NCBI GenBank assembly: GCA_903959355.1
Contig: CAJBWJ010000058.1
Coordinates: forward strand, 1-37,755
Reading direction: 5' to 3'
Length of the DNA stretch: 37,755 nt
Source of the DNA: an uncultured bacterium
Lineage (GTDB): Bacteria; Patescibacteriota; Microgenomatia; UBA1400; PJMF01
Of this stretch, positions 537 to 6,188 are shown piece by piece. The notes beneath the pieces are model-generated. The model made no database searches, was not told the DNA's origin, and worked only from the letters and a program-made list of their open reading frames with translations. The stretch's first letter is position 1; each line of letters begins with the position of its first letter. The translations under genes were made by a program, and so were the position numbers.

Positions 537-1298
537 TTATGACAAACTTTCAAAATATTCTGCCAAGCCATCGTTTTTAACATCACCTATAATTTGATCG
601 GCTAATTCTTTCAGATCAGGAACAGCATTGCCCATGGCTATTTTGAGTCCAACTCCAGCAAATAAATGAAAATCATTATTACCATCACCAACGCCAATTG
701 AATTATTTTTACTGACGGCAGTTTTCTCCAAAAGAATCGCTATGGCATGTTCTTTGGTAGCCTGAGCGTTGGTTATGTGCAAATCACGACAGCCTTTAAT
801 CTTGTCGAAGACCATCGTGCAAATAACATTTGGTATTTGAGAAATTTTTTCTTGAATAATAAAGGCTATTTTCTCTGGAACAAAAACTTGCTCTAAAAAA
901 TAAACTTCTTCTGGTAAAACAAAAGTGTCTGCAGATAAACCACCATTGAAGTAATCATCTTCGCTGTAGTCGTTGCACAAAATCTTGTACTTCGAATACT
1001 CAGACATGATTTGTAAAATTTGTTTGGCTGCTGCTTTTTCAATATTATGTTGCCAGATAATTTCACCAGTTTTTGGTAAACAAATCCTCGTTCCACCAGA
1101 AATGACGCAAGGATCTTCTAACTCTAAATCTTGTAATAAATCTTTAGCAAAAGTCCAAGACCTGCCAGTCGCAGCACAAATAAAATAACGATCTTCTAAA
1201 TTTCTAATCGCTTCTTTTAATCTTTGGCTGGCTAACTTCTGATCTGGAGAATCAATAGCTGTACCATCTAGATCGATAATGATGGCTTTATTCTTCAT
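537..1298 (-). CDS. HAD-superfamily (Cof-like) hydrolase
   Basis: ORF with DLDGTAID motif and C-terminal GDGNNDFHLFAGVGLKIAMGNA motif; ATGA overlap with the ileS stop. Confidence 0.88.
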   Translation of the reverse strand: MKNKAIIIDLDGTAIDSPDQKLASQRLKEAIRNLEDRYFICAATGRSWTFAKDLLQDLELEDPCVISGGTRICLPKTGEIIWQHNIEKAAAKQILQIMSEYSKYKILCNDYSEDDYFNGGLSADTFVLPEEVYFLEQVFVPEKIAFIIQEKISQIPNVICTMVFDKIKGCRDLHITNAQATKEHAIAILLEKTAVSKNNSIGVGDGNNDFHLFAGVGLKIAMGNAVPDLKELADQIIGDVKNDGLAEYFESLS

Positions 1299-4147
1299 AT
1301 TTTAAGCTTAGCTATTTCACCAGCAACGATTTTAGTATTCGTTTTCTCTTCAATTTCTTGTTTAAAAGCTTCTGGATAGTTCGGTAATTCGACTTCAACA
1401 ATTTTATTCATATCCAAAAGAGCCTCTTTGCGTAAATCTTGAATTTGACGAATTATTTCTCTGGCTTCACCTTCAGCTCTGAGTTCATCGGTCAAATTGA
1501 AATCATAATCCACTCTTAAATCACCAGAGTTATCTAGCCATTCAATTTTTTTGACATTGAGCTCCATCAGAAGAAGTGCTTCTAACTCGTCGCGATATTC
1601 AAGCTCAGCAAAACCACTTACTTTCAAACTAGCTAAAGGCTGACGAGCCTTAAGCTGCTTCTCTCGACGCAAGCTATGACCAAGTTCAACAATCTTACGA
1701 GCCAAATCCATGGCAGTTTCTAATTTTTGATCATGAAATTTTTCCTGATATTCTGGGAAAGCTTGCAAGTGAATAGAATTTTCTTCACTAATCATATTGT
1801 GATGAATCAGTTCGGTAAAAAATGGCACTATCGGCGCAAAAGCCTTAGCCAATTCATAAATCACCGTCGCAAAAACTTGACTAACTTCTTGATTGTCGCT
1901 CGCTTTAAGGCGCTCGCGACTCAAACGCAAATACCAAGTCGACAATTCATCGATGAATGGAGCCAATAAGCGACTGGCCTTCATCACATCATAATTATCG
2001 AGATTTTGTCTTAGCTCTTCAATGACGCTTTGCAAACGACTCAGAATCCAACGATCAAGTAAATTACTTGGCAATTTGTCGGCAGCTAAGTCGAAGAAAC
2101 CAGCTTTTTGATCACTAAATGATTTATAGAAAGCCAAAACATTCCACCAAATCACAAAAACACGACGACGCAAATTAGCTACGTCTTTCTCGTCAAAATT
2201 AAGAGTTTCTGCCTTAACTGCAGGAGATGACATCATGTACAAACGCAATGCATCAGCTCCATACTTTTCCAAAATTGCTCCTGGCTCTGGATAATTTTTG
2301 AGACGCTTGCTCATTTTTTTACCATCAGATGCCATGATTAAACCAGTGCACATTACATTTTTGAAAGCACTAGTTTCTTTTTCACTACCCAAAGTTAGAG
2401 CAGTTGCCAAAACATGCAAAGTGTAAAACCAACCGCGAGTCTGATCTTGACCCTCAGAAATAAAATCGGCAGGGAAAGAACGCTTAAAAGCTTCTTGATT
2501 GGCAAATGGATAATGCAACTCACCATAAGGCATGGAGCCTGATTCAAACCAACAATCCAAAACTTCAGGAATGTGATGATAAGTTTTGCCGTCTTTTTCA
2601 AAAGTAATTTTATCAACAATGTGTTTGTGCAAATCGCTAACTTTCTGACCAGAAAGAGTTTCTAATTCTTCAATAGAACTGATACAAACAAAATCACCGC
2701 TTTCACTCTCCCAAATTGGTAGAGGAGTGCCCCAATAACGATTGCGAGAAATTGCCCAATCACGAGCACCCTCAAGCCATTTGCCAAAGCGACCATGCTT
2801 GATATGATCAGGCTGCCAATTAACCTTTTCGTTGTTGGCCAAAAGCTGATCTTTGAAGGAGCTGACTTTGACATACCAACTATCAGTAGCGTAATTAAGC
2901 AGAGGAGTATCACAACGCCAACAATGTGGATAACTGTGCTCGATTTTTTTCTTGGCAAAAAGCGTCCCACGAGCGGCTAAATATTTAATAATCTCAACAT
3001 CAGTCATGGTTGGATTATCTTTTGGTTTGACTTCCATCCCAGCAAAATCTGTCACCTCAGCTGTGAAACGACCATCCATACCCACATGTTGCAACAGCTC
3101 AATACCTTCAGCTTTGCCAACTTTATAGTCATCTTCACCAAAAGCTGGAGCAATGTGGACGATGCCAGTACCTTCATCCAAAGTCACAAAATCTTCAGTG
3201 ACAATACGGAAAGCTTTGGCCCAATTAGCAAAATATGGGAAAACTGGAGTGTAGGTCAGGCCAGCTAATTTGGAACCCATAAATGGCTCGCCAACTAATT
3301 CGAAATCTTTATCAACAATTACTTCAGCCAAACGAGTTTTAGAGACAATTATCAAACCCTCTTCGCCAACAATTTTAACCAAAACATATTCAAGATCCGG
3401 ACCAACTGCCAATAGAACATTGCCTGGCAAAGTCCAAGGAGTGGTAGTCCAAGCGACGGCATAGATTTTCTCGCTGGTTTCTACACCAAGAGTGGCGGCA
3501 GCGTTAACCAATTCGAATTTAGCAAAAACAGAAATATCTTTAACATCTTTGTAACCTTGAGTCACTTCAAAATTGGAAAGCGGAGTTCCACAACGAGGAC
3601 AGATGTGCATGGACTTATGGCTTTTGTAAATCAGGCCCTTATCCCAAAGCTTACGGAAAACCCACCAGACGGTTTCCATGAATTCTTTATCCATAGTTTT
3701 GTAGGCGTGATCCATGTCAATCCAGCGACCAATACGACGAATGGTGGTTTTCCACTCCTCGGCATATGTCAGAACAGTTTGACGACATGCTTCGTTAAAT
3801 TTATCCACACCATAGGTCTCAATGTCTTTTTTGCTATCAAGATTGAGTTGTTTTTCGATGATATTTTCGACTGGTAGACCATGACAATCCCAACCCCAAA
3901 CACGGCGAACTTTCTTGCCCAGCATGGTCTGATAACGAGGAATTAAATCCTTGATAATAGACTGCATTAAATGACCATAATGAGGCAAACCAGTGGCAAA
4001 TGGAGGACCATCATAGAAAGAGAATGAATTATCTTCGCTTCTTTGATTGACTGATTTCTGGAAGGTTTGATCTTGATCCCAAAAGGCGAGAATTTCTTGT
4101 TCTAATTCTGGAAAATTTGGTACTTGTCTAAAATCTTTGATTTTCAT
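1295..4147 (-). CDS. ileS: Isoleucyl-tRNA synthetase (eukaryal-like IleRS2 type)
   Basis: FYDGPPFATGLPHYGH (HIGH region), WGWDCHGLPVE, GKKMSKRLKNYPEP (KMSKS); SD-like AAGGA before ATG. Confidence 0.97.
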   Translation of the reverse strand: MKIKDFRQVPNFPELEQEILAFWDQDQTFQKSVNQRSEDNSFSFYDGPPFATGLPHYGHLMQSIIKDLIPRYQTMLGKKVRRVWGWDCHGLPVENIIEKQLNLDSKKDIETYGVDKFNEACRQTVLTYAEEWKTTIRRIGRWIDMDHAYKTMDKEFMETVWWVFRKLWDKGLIYKSHKSMHICPRCGTPLSNFEVTQGYKDVKDISVFAKFELVNAAATLGVETSEKIYAVAWTTTPWTLPGNVLLAVGPDLEYVLVKIVGEEGLIIVSKTRLAEVIVDKDFELVGEPFMGSKLAGLTYTPVFPYFANWAKAFRIVTEDFVTLDEGTGIVHIAPAFGEDDYKVGKAEGIELLQHVGMDGRFTAEVTDFAGMEVKPKDNPTMTDVEIIKYLAARGTLFAKKKIEHSYPHCWRCDTPLLNYATDSWYVKVSSFKDQLLANNEKVNWQPDHIKHGRFGKWLEGARDWAISRNRYWGTPLPIWESESGDFVCISSIEELETLSGQKVSDLHKHIVDKITFEKDGKTYHHIPEVLDCWFESGSMPYGELHYPFANQEAFKRSFPADFISEGQDQTRGWFYTLHVLATALTLGSEKETSAFKNVMCTGLIMASDGKKMSKRLKNYPEPGAILEKYGADALRLYMMSSPAVKAETLNFDEKDVANLRRRVFVIWWNVLAFYKSFSDQKAGFFDLAADKLPSNLLDRWILSRLQSVIEELRQNLDNYDVMKASRLLAPFIDELSTWYLRLSRERLKASDNQEVSQVFATVIYELAKAFAPIVPFFTELIHHNMISEENSIHLQAFPEYQEKFHDQKLETAMDLARKIVELGHSLRREKQLKARQPLASLKVSGFAELEYRDELEALLLMELNVKKIEWLDNSGDLRVDYDFNLTDELRAEGEAREIIRQIQDLRKEALLDMNKIVEVELPNYPEAFKQEIEEKTNTKIVAGEIAKLKI

Positions 4148-4376
4148 TGTTTCCTTATATATTTTTTTGCTACAAAAAAAGCCTGCCTAAAAACGAACCA
4201 AAAGTGTCGTTTCTAAGCAGGCTTATCTTATAGAAGATAAAGGTACCAGCCTTGCTAATACTTAATTTAAGTGATTACGGACTCACCCGGCTTGGTCTAA
4301 TCAATTCTTGCTTTAAGACAAGAAAATTTCTTCAAGCACCTTGCCATTGATAGTGGCTAAAACGGTTTTAATTTAA
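4148..4376 (-). promoter_or_regulatory. Candidate T-box riboswitch leader of ileS (5' UTR)
   Basis: Minus-strand leader contains AGCAAGGC-UGGUACC-U-UUAUCUU-CUAU-AAGAUAA-GCCUGC: UGGNACC core in a bulge between an A1-like helix (GCAAGGC/GCCUGC, one bulged A) and an A2-like perfect 7-bp hairpin. The GCCUGC strand is also the 5' arm of a downstream intrinsic terminator. Confidence 0.75.
4174..4224 (-). terminator. Intrinsic terminator in the ileS leader (attenuator)
   Basis: Minus strand AGCCTGCTTAGAAACGA-CACTTTTGGT-TCGTTTTTAGGCAGGCT followed by a T tract. Confidence 0.85.
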
Positions 4377-4383
4377 CAAAGGA

Positions 4384-4389
4384 ATTATA
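4384..4389 (-). promoter_or_regulatory. -10 element (TATAAT) upstream of the ileS leader
   Basis: Perfect TATAAT on the minus strand in the 4148-4422 noncoding gap; no good -35 seen. Confidence 0.5.
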
Positions 4390-4422
4390 GCACAAAGATA
4401 GCTCACTAAACTAAATTTAAAA

Positions 4423-4866
4423 TCATCCGACTTGCTTTGCAACAGTAGTATGCGCTTCTAACAAAATCGGTTTATTTTCCCTAGAAATTAATTTCAATTG
4501 TATCTGTACCCGGCCAGAATTAAAGACAACCTGAACTTCTTCAGATTCCAGTGGCCATTTGATAGTTTGCTGCACTGTTTGATGAGAGTGAACCGCATTG
4601 TTGAAACTAATAGCTAAGCTTTCGCTTTCTGATTCTAAATAAAAAGACAGTCCTCCCACAAGTTCTCTTCCACGTAAGTTCCAAACCTTATTATCAAAAG
4701 CCATTTCTTTTCTAAAGAAATATTCATCTTTAATAACTGGGCTTTCTTCTTCTTTTTTTCCCGTTAATAGAGCCTTGATTTTAGTGCCAATGGCACGCGT
4801 TTTCTCTGGGATATAATCAAAAATTACTTCTGCTATATCATCAATTACGTCTCCTTCTCTTTTCAT
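4423..4866 (-). CDS. Hypothetical protein (147 aa) downstream of ftsZ; possible Hsp20-like beta-sandwich
   Basis: Intact ORF with strong SD (AGGAGATTAAGAACATG) directly after ftsZ; C-terminal TIKWPLESEEVQVVFNSGRVQIQLKL resembles the Hsp20 end motif. Confidence 0.8.
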   Translation of the reverse strand: MKREGDVIDDIAEVIFDYIPEKTRAIGTKIKALLTGKKEEESPVIKDEYFFRKEMAFDNKVWNLRGRELVGGLSFYLESESESLAISFNNAVHSHQTVQQTIKWPLESEEVQVVFNSGRVQIQLKLISRENKPILLEAHTTVAKQVG

Positions 4867-4886
4867 GTTCTTAATCTCCTATATCC

Positions 4887-6188
4887 CTATCTATCTCTCA
4901 AAAAAGCTGGCACATCAAATTCAGCAAATTCATCATCGCTGTCGATGTCTTCTTTTTTGTCACTCTTGTCATCACGCTTTTGTTCTTCTTTTTTCTTCAA
5001 GTTAAAGAGAGCAGAGCGAACGAAAGGATTGTGACTTTCTTGTGGCTCTTCTTTTTTAGGCTTAGCCGGCATGATTTGAGGCTGAGTAAAACCACTTGGA
5101 GCACGGTCAATTTTATCTTCCTCTTCATCTTCTTCATTTTGCTTACTGTAATTAGCGGTTGGACCAGTCATTTTACGACGAGATTCTCTGCCATAAGCCC
5201 CGAACATAGCTCTAGGACCAGAACCTGGATAATTGTCACCAAAACCAGTGGCAATGACGCTAATCTTGATCTTAGAACCCATGTTTTCGTCAATCGTAGC
5301 GCCAAAAATGACGTTAGCATCTGGATCGGAGCTGTCAGCAATCACTGAAGAAGCATCGGAAACTTCGCTCATGGTCATATCTGGACCACCAGTAATGTTG
5401 TAAAGAATACCCTTGGCCCCATCGATGGAAACTTCCAAAAGTGGGGAAGAAACAGCCATACGAGCAGCAGTCACAGCGCGATCTTCTCCAGAAGCCTCAC
5501 CAATACCCATCAAAGCTGAACCGGAATCAATCATGATAGTTTTTACATCAGCAAAATCAACATTTATCATGCCTGGAACAGTGATTAAATCGGAAATACC
5601 TTTGACACCCTGGCCGAGAACATTGTCAGCCAAACGGAAAGCATCGATAAAAGTCATTTTTTTATCGACTACTTCAAGTAAACGTTGGTTTGGAATCACA
5701 ATTAAAGTGTCGACAGTATCACCAAGAGCTTCAATGCCTTCGTCAGCGGTCTGCATGCGACGAATGCCTTCAAAAGCAAATGGTTTGGTGACCACGGCTA
5801 CAGTCAAAGCACCAGCTTCTTTGGCAATTTCAGCGATGATAGGGGCCGCACCAGTACCAGTGCCACCACCCATACCAGCAGTAATGAAAACCATATCAGT
5901 ATCGAAAAGCAGATCCTTAAGCTTCTCGCGACTCTCTTCAGCAGCAGTGCGACCAACTTCTGGATCAGCACCAGCACCAAGACCACGAGTAAAATTGCTA
6001 CCAATTTGCATTTTAGTTTCAGCTTTGGAAGTTAAAAGTGCTTGAGCATCAGTATTAACAGTGATAAATTCCACACCACTAATTTGTCTAGATAGGACCA
6101 TGGAATTGACAGCATTGCTACCGCCACCACCAACACCAATGACTTTGATTTTGGCAAAAGTTGTATTTGAAGGTTTAACGAGTCCCAT
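4887..6188 (-). CDS. ftsZ: Cell division protein FtsZ
   Basis: [25 protein letters not shown] tubulin signature, C-terminal peptide [10 protein letters not shown]. Confidence 0.99.

Follow-up and report, generated by a model that had tools for sequence, protein, structure and literature searches.

The ileS leader and its parts

The window analysed here, the whole 37,755-nucleotide (nt) contig CAJBWJ010000058.1, comes from an uncultured bacterium whose genome is that of a Patescibacterium (records of the same genus include CP011212 and UBA1364). On its minus strand lies ileS, which matches NCBIfam TIGR00392 (ileS) with 917.8 bits against a cut-off of 621.4. Judging from its sequence and that of its relatives, the leader of this gene is almost certainly a T-box riboswitch that combines Class III architecture with a transcription terminator as its output. 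The features are as follows.

1295 to 4147, minus strand: ileS, isoleucine--tRNA ligase of 950 amino acids, the putative regulated gene (NCBIfam TIGR00392)
4152 to 4156, minus strand: AAGGA, a candidate for the ileS Shine-Dalgarno sequence that lies past the U-run and outside the terminator stem (direct reading)
4174 to 4224, minus strand: predicted intrinsic terminator, an 18-bp stem (4224-4179) and U7, its 5' arm overlapping the 3' strand of A1 (fold energy, overlap, same position in relatives)
4216 to 4256, minus strand: predicted antiterminator, with A1 (4256-4249 with 4222-4216), bulge UGGUACC (4248-4242) and A2 hairpin (4240-4223) (fold, invariance of UGG/ACC, A1 covariation)
4269 to 4289, minus strand: predicted Stem IIA/B pseudoknot (F-box), IIA CGG/CCG and IIB AGU/ACU (pairing kept across leaders)
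4290 to 4337, minus strand: predicted Stem II, with base GCUUG/CAAGC, S-turn AAGAAA (4332-4327) facing AUUAGAC (4301-4295), and an apical hairpin (fold, covariation)
4338 to 4366, minus strand: predicted ultrashort Stem I, with base ACC/GGU, K-turn-like internal loop GUUUUA/AA, upper helix GCCA/UGGC and 7-nt apical loop CUAUCAA (minimum-free-energy [MFE] fold, covariation of both helices across genera, model alignment)
4349 to 4351, minus strand: predicted specifier AUC in the Stem I apical loop (aligned with AUC of other ileS leaders; pairs with the tRNA-Ile GAU anticodon)
4384 to 4389, minus strand: TATAAT of an extended -10 promoter-like TGCTATAAT, predicted start near 4376 (sequence match only)

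At 29 nt, Stem I has no room for the interdigitated double T-loop motif (IDTM) that binds the tRNA elbow. Its internal loop would form a K-turn, and the two facing strands of Stem II an S-turn. Between 4268 and 4254 on the minus strand of the window there is no Stem III hairpin; three leaders of the same genus (L004, L005, L007) have one right before the antiterminator.

The initial annotation, made from the letters of the window, had the 3' half of the leader right and left the specifier, Stem I, Stem II and the pseudoknot unrecognised. The minus-strand sequence that it read, AGCAAGGC UGGUACC U UUAUCUU CUAU AAGAUAA GCCUGCU, is found at 4256-4216, and this segment alone folds essentially as A1 / UGGUACC-U / A2 (-10.7 kcal/mol), in agreement with the A1-like helix and A2 hairpin that it had drawn: A1 is AGC-A-AGGC paired with GCCU-GCU, with one bulged A, and A2 is a perfect 7-bp hairpin. 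The terminator at 4224-4179 folds at about -28 kcal/mol (z = -6.7), a stability that none of 200 shuffles equalled. Strand 4222-4216 belongs both to A1, as its 3' strand, and to the 5' arm of the terminator, and therefore the antiterminator and the terminator would be mutually exclusive, as the initial annotation had proposed. Truncated transcripts that stop before the 3' arm of the terminator fold the A2 hairpin instead. Neither of the isoleucine triplets that had been put forward as specifiers held up: by alignment, ATC at 4275-4273 lies in the linker between IIA and IIB of the pseudoknot, ATT at 4301-4299 belongs to the S-turn of Stem II (3' strand), and the actual specifier is at 4351-4349.

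A further hairpin, GUAUUAGC/GCUGGUAC at 4261-4243 on the minus strand of the window, would mask UGGU; the MFE fold contains it, as do several leaders of the same genus, and it is possibly an additional off-state. It was also the sole terminator-like match of a generic scan, which was set aside as this alternative hairpin and not the actual terminator.

Leaders of other genera covary in the same helices

Six further species of the genus have DNA similar to the leader upstream of their ileS; in other genera of the family the similarity is weak. The ileS upstream regions were collected across the order, with further ileS loci, and parsed by motif. The same order of elements is shared by 41 distinct ileS leaders, four of them saccharibacterial. 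The plan common to them begins with a 3-bp base, a K-turn-like loop (GNNNGA versus GA/AA), an upper helix of 4-7 bp and a short loop at the apex that holds AUC, and continues with Stem II (5-bp base, AGAA/UAGA S-turn), a CGG/CCG IIA whose loop pairs downstream (IIB), and the antiterminator.

Covariation was measured on an alignment of 16 leaders, all from genera other than that of the window. In this alignment 89.4% of cells were paired (69.6% when shuffled), both sides had changed in 18 of 23 pairs, and compensatory cells numbered 87 as against 29 in the shuffled alignments. The covariation score was 0.645, compared with 0.246 for shuffled alignments and no more than 0.21 in slid registers, which preserve relatedness where shuffles do not; no shuffle out of 500 reached any of five covariation measures. 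All five pairs of the Stem II basal helix covary, and its AGAA and UAGA are near-invariant. IIA is paired in 100% of the aligned relatives and IIB is mostly retained, with compensatory variants AGU/ACU, AGC/GCU, UGC/GCA, UGGC/GCCA and GAC/GUC. UGG and ACC of the antiterminator are invariant among the 16 leaders, and A1 covaries.

A covariance model built from those 16 leaders matched the window at 4371-4214 on the minus strand over its full length, with 91.2 bits and E = 6e-25. The runner-up scores were 5.1 bits in the window and 11.6 bits in the whole genome, and 4371-4214 is the only credible match of the model in the genome. Folding of the entire leader gives z = -4.0, and its MFE structure contains Stem I, Stem II and the terminator. 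Given this value and the E value from a model without the window's genus, the leader pattern is far beyond chance.

Specifiers follow the downstream synthetase

The genome's own tRNA-Ile carries the anticodon GAU and A73, which fits the specifier AUC and the bulge UGGU. A73 was present in all 20 tRNA-Ile genes examined. The 3' CCA is encoded in only three of these 20 genes (L167, L168 and L170, among loci L164-L183).

Elements found with the same model at other loci of relatives have apical loops that suit their genes: GUC loops precede four valS genes (L200, L207, L211, L220), GAC loops two aspS genes (L190, L223) and UCC one serS gene (L198). The specifier in relatives hence tracks the amino acid of the gene that follows, from AUC at ileS to GUC at valS, GAC at aspS and UCC at serS; at the last three the triplets come from inspection of the apical loops by eye. 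Training on ileS loops has fixed the model's specifier column to those loops, which makes its automatic output incorrect for several valS elements, and for the same reason the valS triplets were read by eye. A T-box of the short architecture also lies upstream of an aminotransferase-like gene in one relative (L203).

Distribution and type of output in Patescibacteria

Matches to the model at E <= 1e-5, not all of them at ileS, occurred in 84 of 288 Patescibacteria genomes sampled across the phylum. The leaders of the same genus, and most of those in the order, have a terminator in the same place. A terminator-like hairpin with a U-run follows the T-box in about 29-30 of the 41 ileS leaders and in 29 of 46 model matches; the counts are from a simple script that overlooks some forms and makes a few calls too far downstream to be the switch. 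In the saccharibacterial ileS leaders (L041, L042, L048, L051), which have the same ultrashort aptamer, no terminator was found, and these leaders may act on translation. In L042, pairing is possible between the sequence preceding the T-box and the region beside the ribosome-binding site, which suggests translational control as in Actinobacteria. Four other loci (L086, L088, L092, L099) have possible terminators whose 5' arm starts in the T-box ACC (for example ACCACGC with GCGUGGU, then a U-run), possibly a different route to fold exclusivity.

We think it rather likely that Patescibacteria hold a large, undescribed family of T-boxes of Class III architecture, usually with transcription termination as output, that regulate isoleucine, valine, aspartate and serine synthetases. 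Descriptions of T-boxes come for the most part from Firmicutes and Actinobacteria, and the five phyla in which a 2008 survey counted them do not include Patescibacteria. In the part of the literature that was searched, TBDB records apart, we found no description of T-boxes in Patescibacteria (the Candidate Phyla Radiation). Elements with a truncated Stem I were re-scored in TBDB, and therefore some similar ones may be listed there.

Promoter and neighbouring genes

Many relatives also have TATAAT about 15-40 nt before Stem I; a generic promoter scan of the leader did not call the extended -10 at 4389-4384. Upstream of the leader and on the same strand are an ftsZ homologue and a gene of 147 aa that matches no family (window 4423-6188, minus strand), and several relatives have ileS placed after ftsZ-like ends. 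Elsewhere, the window carries a Class I lysyl-tRNA synthetase (PF01921; 35548-37212, minus strand), and a relative carries a DUF3800-V RNA (RF02964, 62.8 bits) at L016:563-657.

Mechanism and alternative explanations

If the leader works as known T-boxes do, the AUC in the apex of Stem I would be offered during transcription to the GAU anticodon of tRNA-Ile, and the S-turn Stem II and the IIA/B pseudoknot would clamp the codon-anticodon pair. The 3' ACCA end of an uncharged tRNA would pair with UGGU of the antiterminator bulge; the antiterminator would then retain GCCUGCU, the terminator would be blocked and ileS would be transcribed. With charged or absent tRNA, the far more stable terminator would form and transcription would stop about 27 nt short of the ileS start codon. 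By analogy with known T-boxes, we infer tRNA binding, the sensing of aminoacylation and the direction of the response, namely tRNA-dependent readthrough.

Several observations weigh against a T-box at this locus. The Rfam T-box model, RF00230, gave no match at E <= 10 in 3900-4700 of the window and none at E <= 1 genome-wide, so that no T-box was detected in the window at gathering or relaxed thresholds. Some ileS genes of the order are without such a leader. The flanks of the antiterminator depart from the AGGGUGGNACCGCG consensus, and one additional unpaired U follows the UGGUACC bulge, which the initial annotation had placed correctly while overlooking this U. Lastly, the bulge is UGGC in three genomes (G008, G029, G020) and UGGA in two (G046, G087) despite A73 in their tRNA-Ile, so the match at the fourth base of the bulge is not strict.

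The poor score with standard models had been foreseen in the initial annotation. These models miss the leader because its tRNA-binding stem is unusually short: RF00230 has 219 positions and gives its best scores to elements with a long Stem I. It does pick up several homologous ileS leaders below its cut-off (33.9 bits in G008, 22.3 bits in same-genus G006), and it detects long-Stem-I T-boxes at other loci of relatives, four of them above the cut-off. Those with a long Stem I among L124-L133 are near alaS-, pheS- and tyrS-like genes, and L133 has a short T-box before a trpS-like gene (all gene names assigned by eye). Weak matches of Rfam microRNA and small RNA families in the window were rejected as chance similarity to the terminator hairpin. 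As for the other expectations of the initial annotation, UGGU as the bulge predicted by A73 agrees with the genome's tRNA-Ile, and in relatives the helices covary and UGG/ACC are invariant, with a fourth bulge base other than U in the five genomes named above. Its central proposal, a T-box controlling ileS by an antiterminator/terminator switch, is borne out by homologous covarying leaders in other genera, the independent model, the GAU/A73 tRNA-Ile and specifiers that follow the synthetase.

The hairpin and U-run might instead be a constitutive terminator of the upstream operon on the ftsZ side, with T-box-like letters that arose by chance or have decayed. The terminator is strong and the ftsZ homologue and the small gene are just upstream on the same strand, but compensatory changes across genera in Stem I, Stem II, the pseudoknot and the antiterminator refute this explanation in the main; the independent model matches the leader at full length, and the leader has its own promoter-like TGCTATAAT downstream of those two genes. 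We regard a constitutive terminator as highly improbable. Scarcely any probability attaches to ribosome-mediated attenuation of ileS by a leader peptide, which would also place a terminator and an alternative fold before a synthetase gene: what is conserved are RNA helices, UGG-ACC, AGAA/UAGA and the AUC of the loop and not a frame of isoleucine codons, although no dedicated search for a leader peptide was made.

A T-box that acts on translation, with the U-run hairpin secondary, would agree with the translational output of the closest characterised architecture, that of ileS in N. farcinica and M. tuberculosis, and with the saccharibacterial ileS leaders that combine the same aptamer with no recognisable terminator. 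However, the candidate Shine-Dalgarno sequence AAGGA (4156-4152) is outside the terminator stem and beyond the U-run, the stem ends in seven U, and the terminator recurs in leaders of the same genus, which makes a translational output at this locus very unlikely. With transcription termination as the output, the ultrashort Class III tRNA-binding module bears on the stated need for a long Stem I: according to a review, transcriptional T-boxes generally require a long, elbow-binding Stem I to catch the tRNA in time. If our reading is true, T-box control during transcription would not need the elbow-binding IDTM of Stem I, against what is usually held. T-boxes appear here throughout a large phylum whose members are ultrasmall and depend on hosts. 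Little is known about regulation in Patescibacteria. The standard RNA-family model has a blind spot for such elements, and the alignment supplied here allows a better one.

Relation to known T-boxes

The leader has the general marks of a T-box: a UGGN-ACC bulge between A1 and A2, a cognate specifier in Stem I, mutually exclusive folds and compensatory changes. With the Class I T-boxes of Firmicutes (B. subtilis tyrS; RF00230) it shares predicted transcription termination/antitermination at a synthetase gene, Stem II, IIA/B and the UGGN bulge. Class I elements have a long Stem I, a distal IDTM and a specifier in an internal loop, whereas the window has a Stem I of 29 nt with an apical specifier and stays below the RF00230 gathering cut-off.

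In Class III T-boxes, Stem I is short, lacks the IDTM, and has a K-turn and a specifier in an apical loop of 5-6 nt; these T-boxes require a Stem II with an S-turn and a IIA/B pseudoknot, and they are mostly translational, as are the closest characterised elements, those of N. farcinica and M. tuberculosis ileS (PMC10482949, PMC10651847). The likeness to the Nocardia farcinica and Mycobacterium tuberculosis elements, drawn from their published descriptions, extends to the short K-turn Stem I without an elbow-binding IDTM, the apical specifier, the S-turn Stem II, the IIA/B pseudoknot, the UGGN bulge and the control of ileS. Unlike these, the window has a 7-nt apical loop (several relatives have one of 6 nt), an extra U in its bulge and a host among Patescibacteria, not Actinobacteria. 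The usual Shine-Dalgarno sequestrator of Class III is replaced by a predicted intrinsic transcription terminator with U7, with the Shine-Dalgarno candidate outside it. Class III elements are described as 'mostly' translational, and therefore a terminator output marks a variant of Class III and not an exclusion from it. By its sequence features, then, the leader is of Class III architecture with a predicted transcriptional output.
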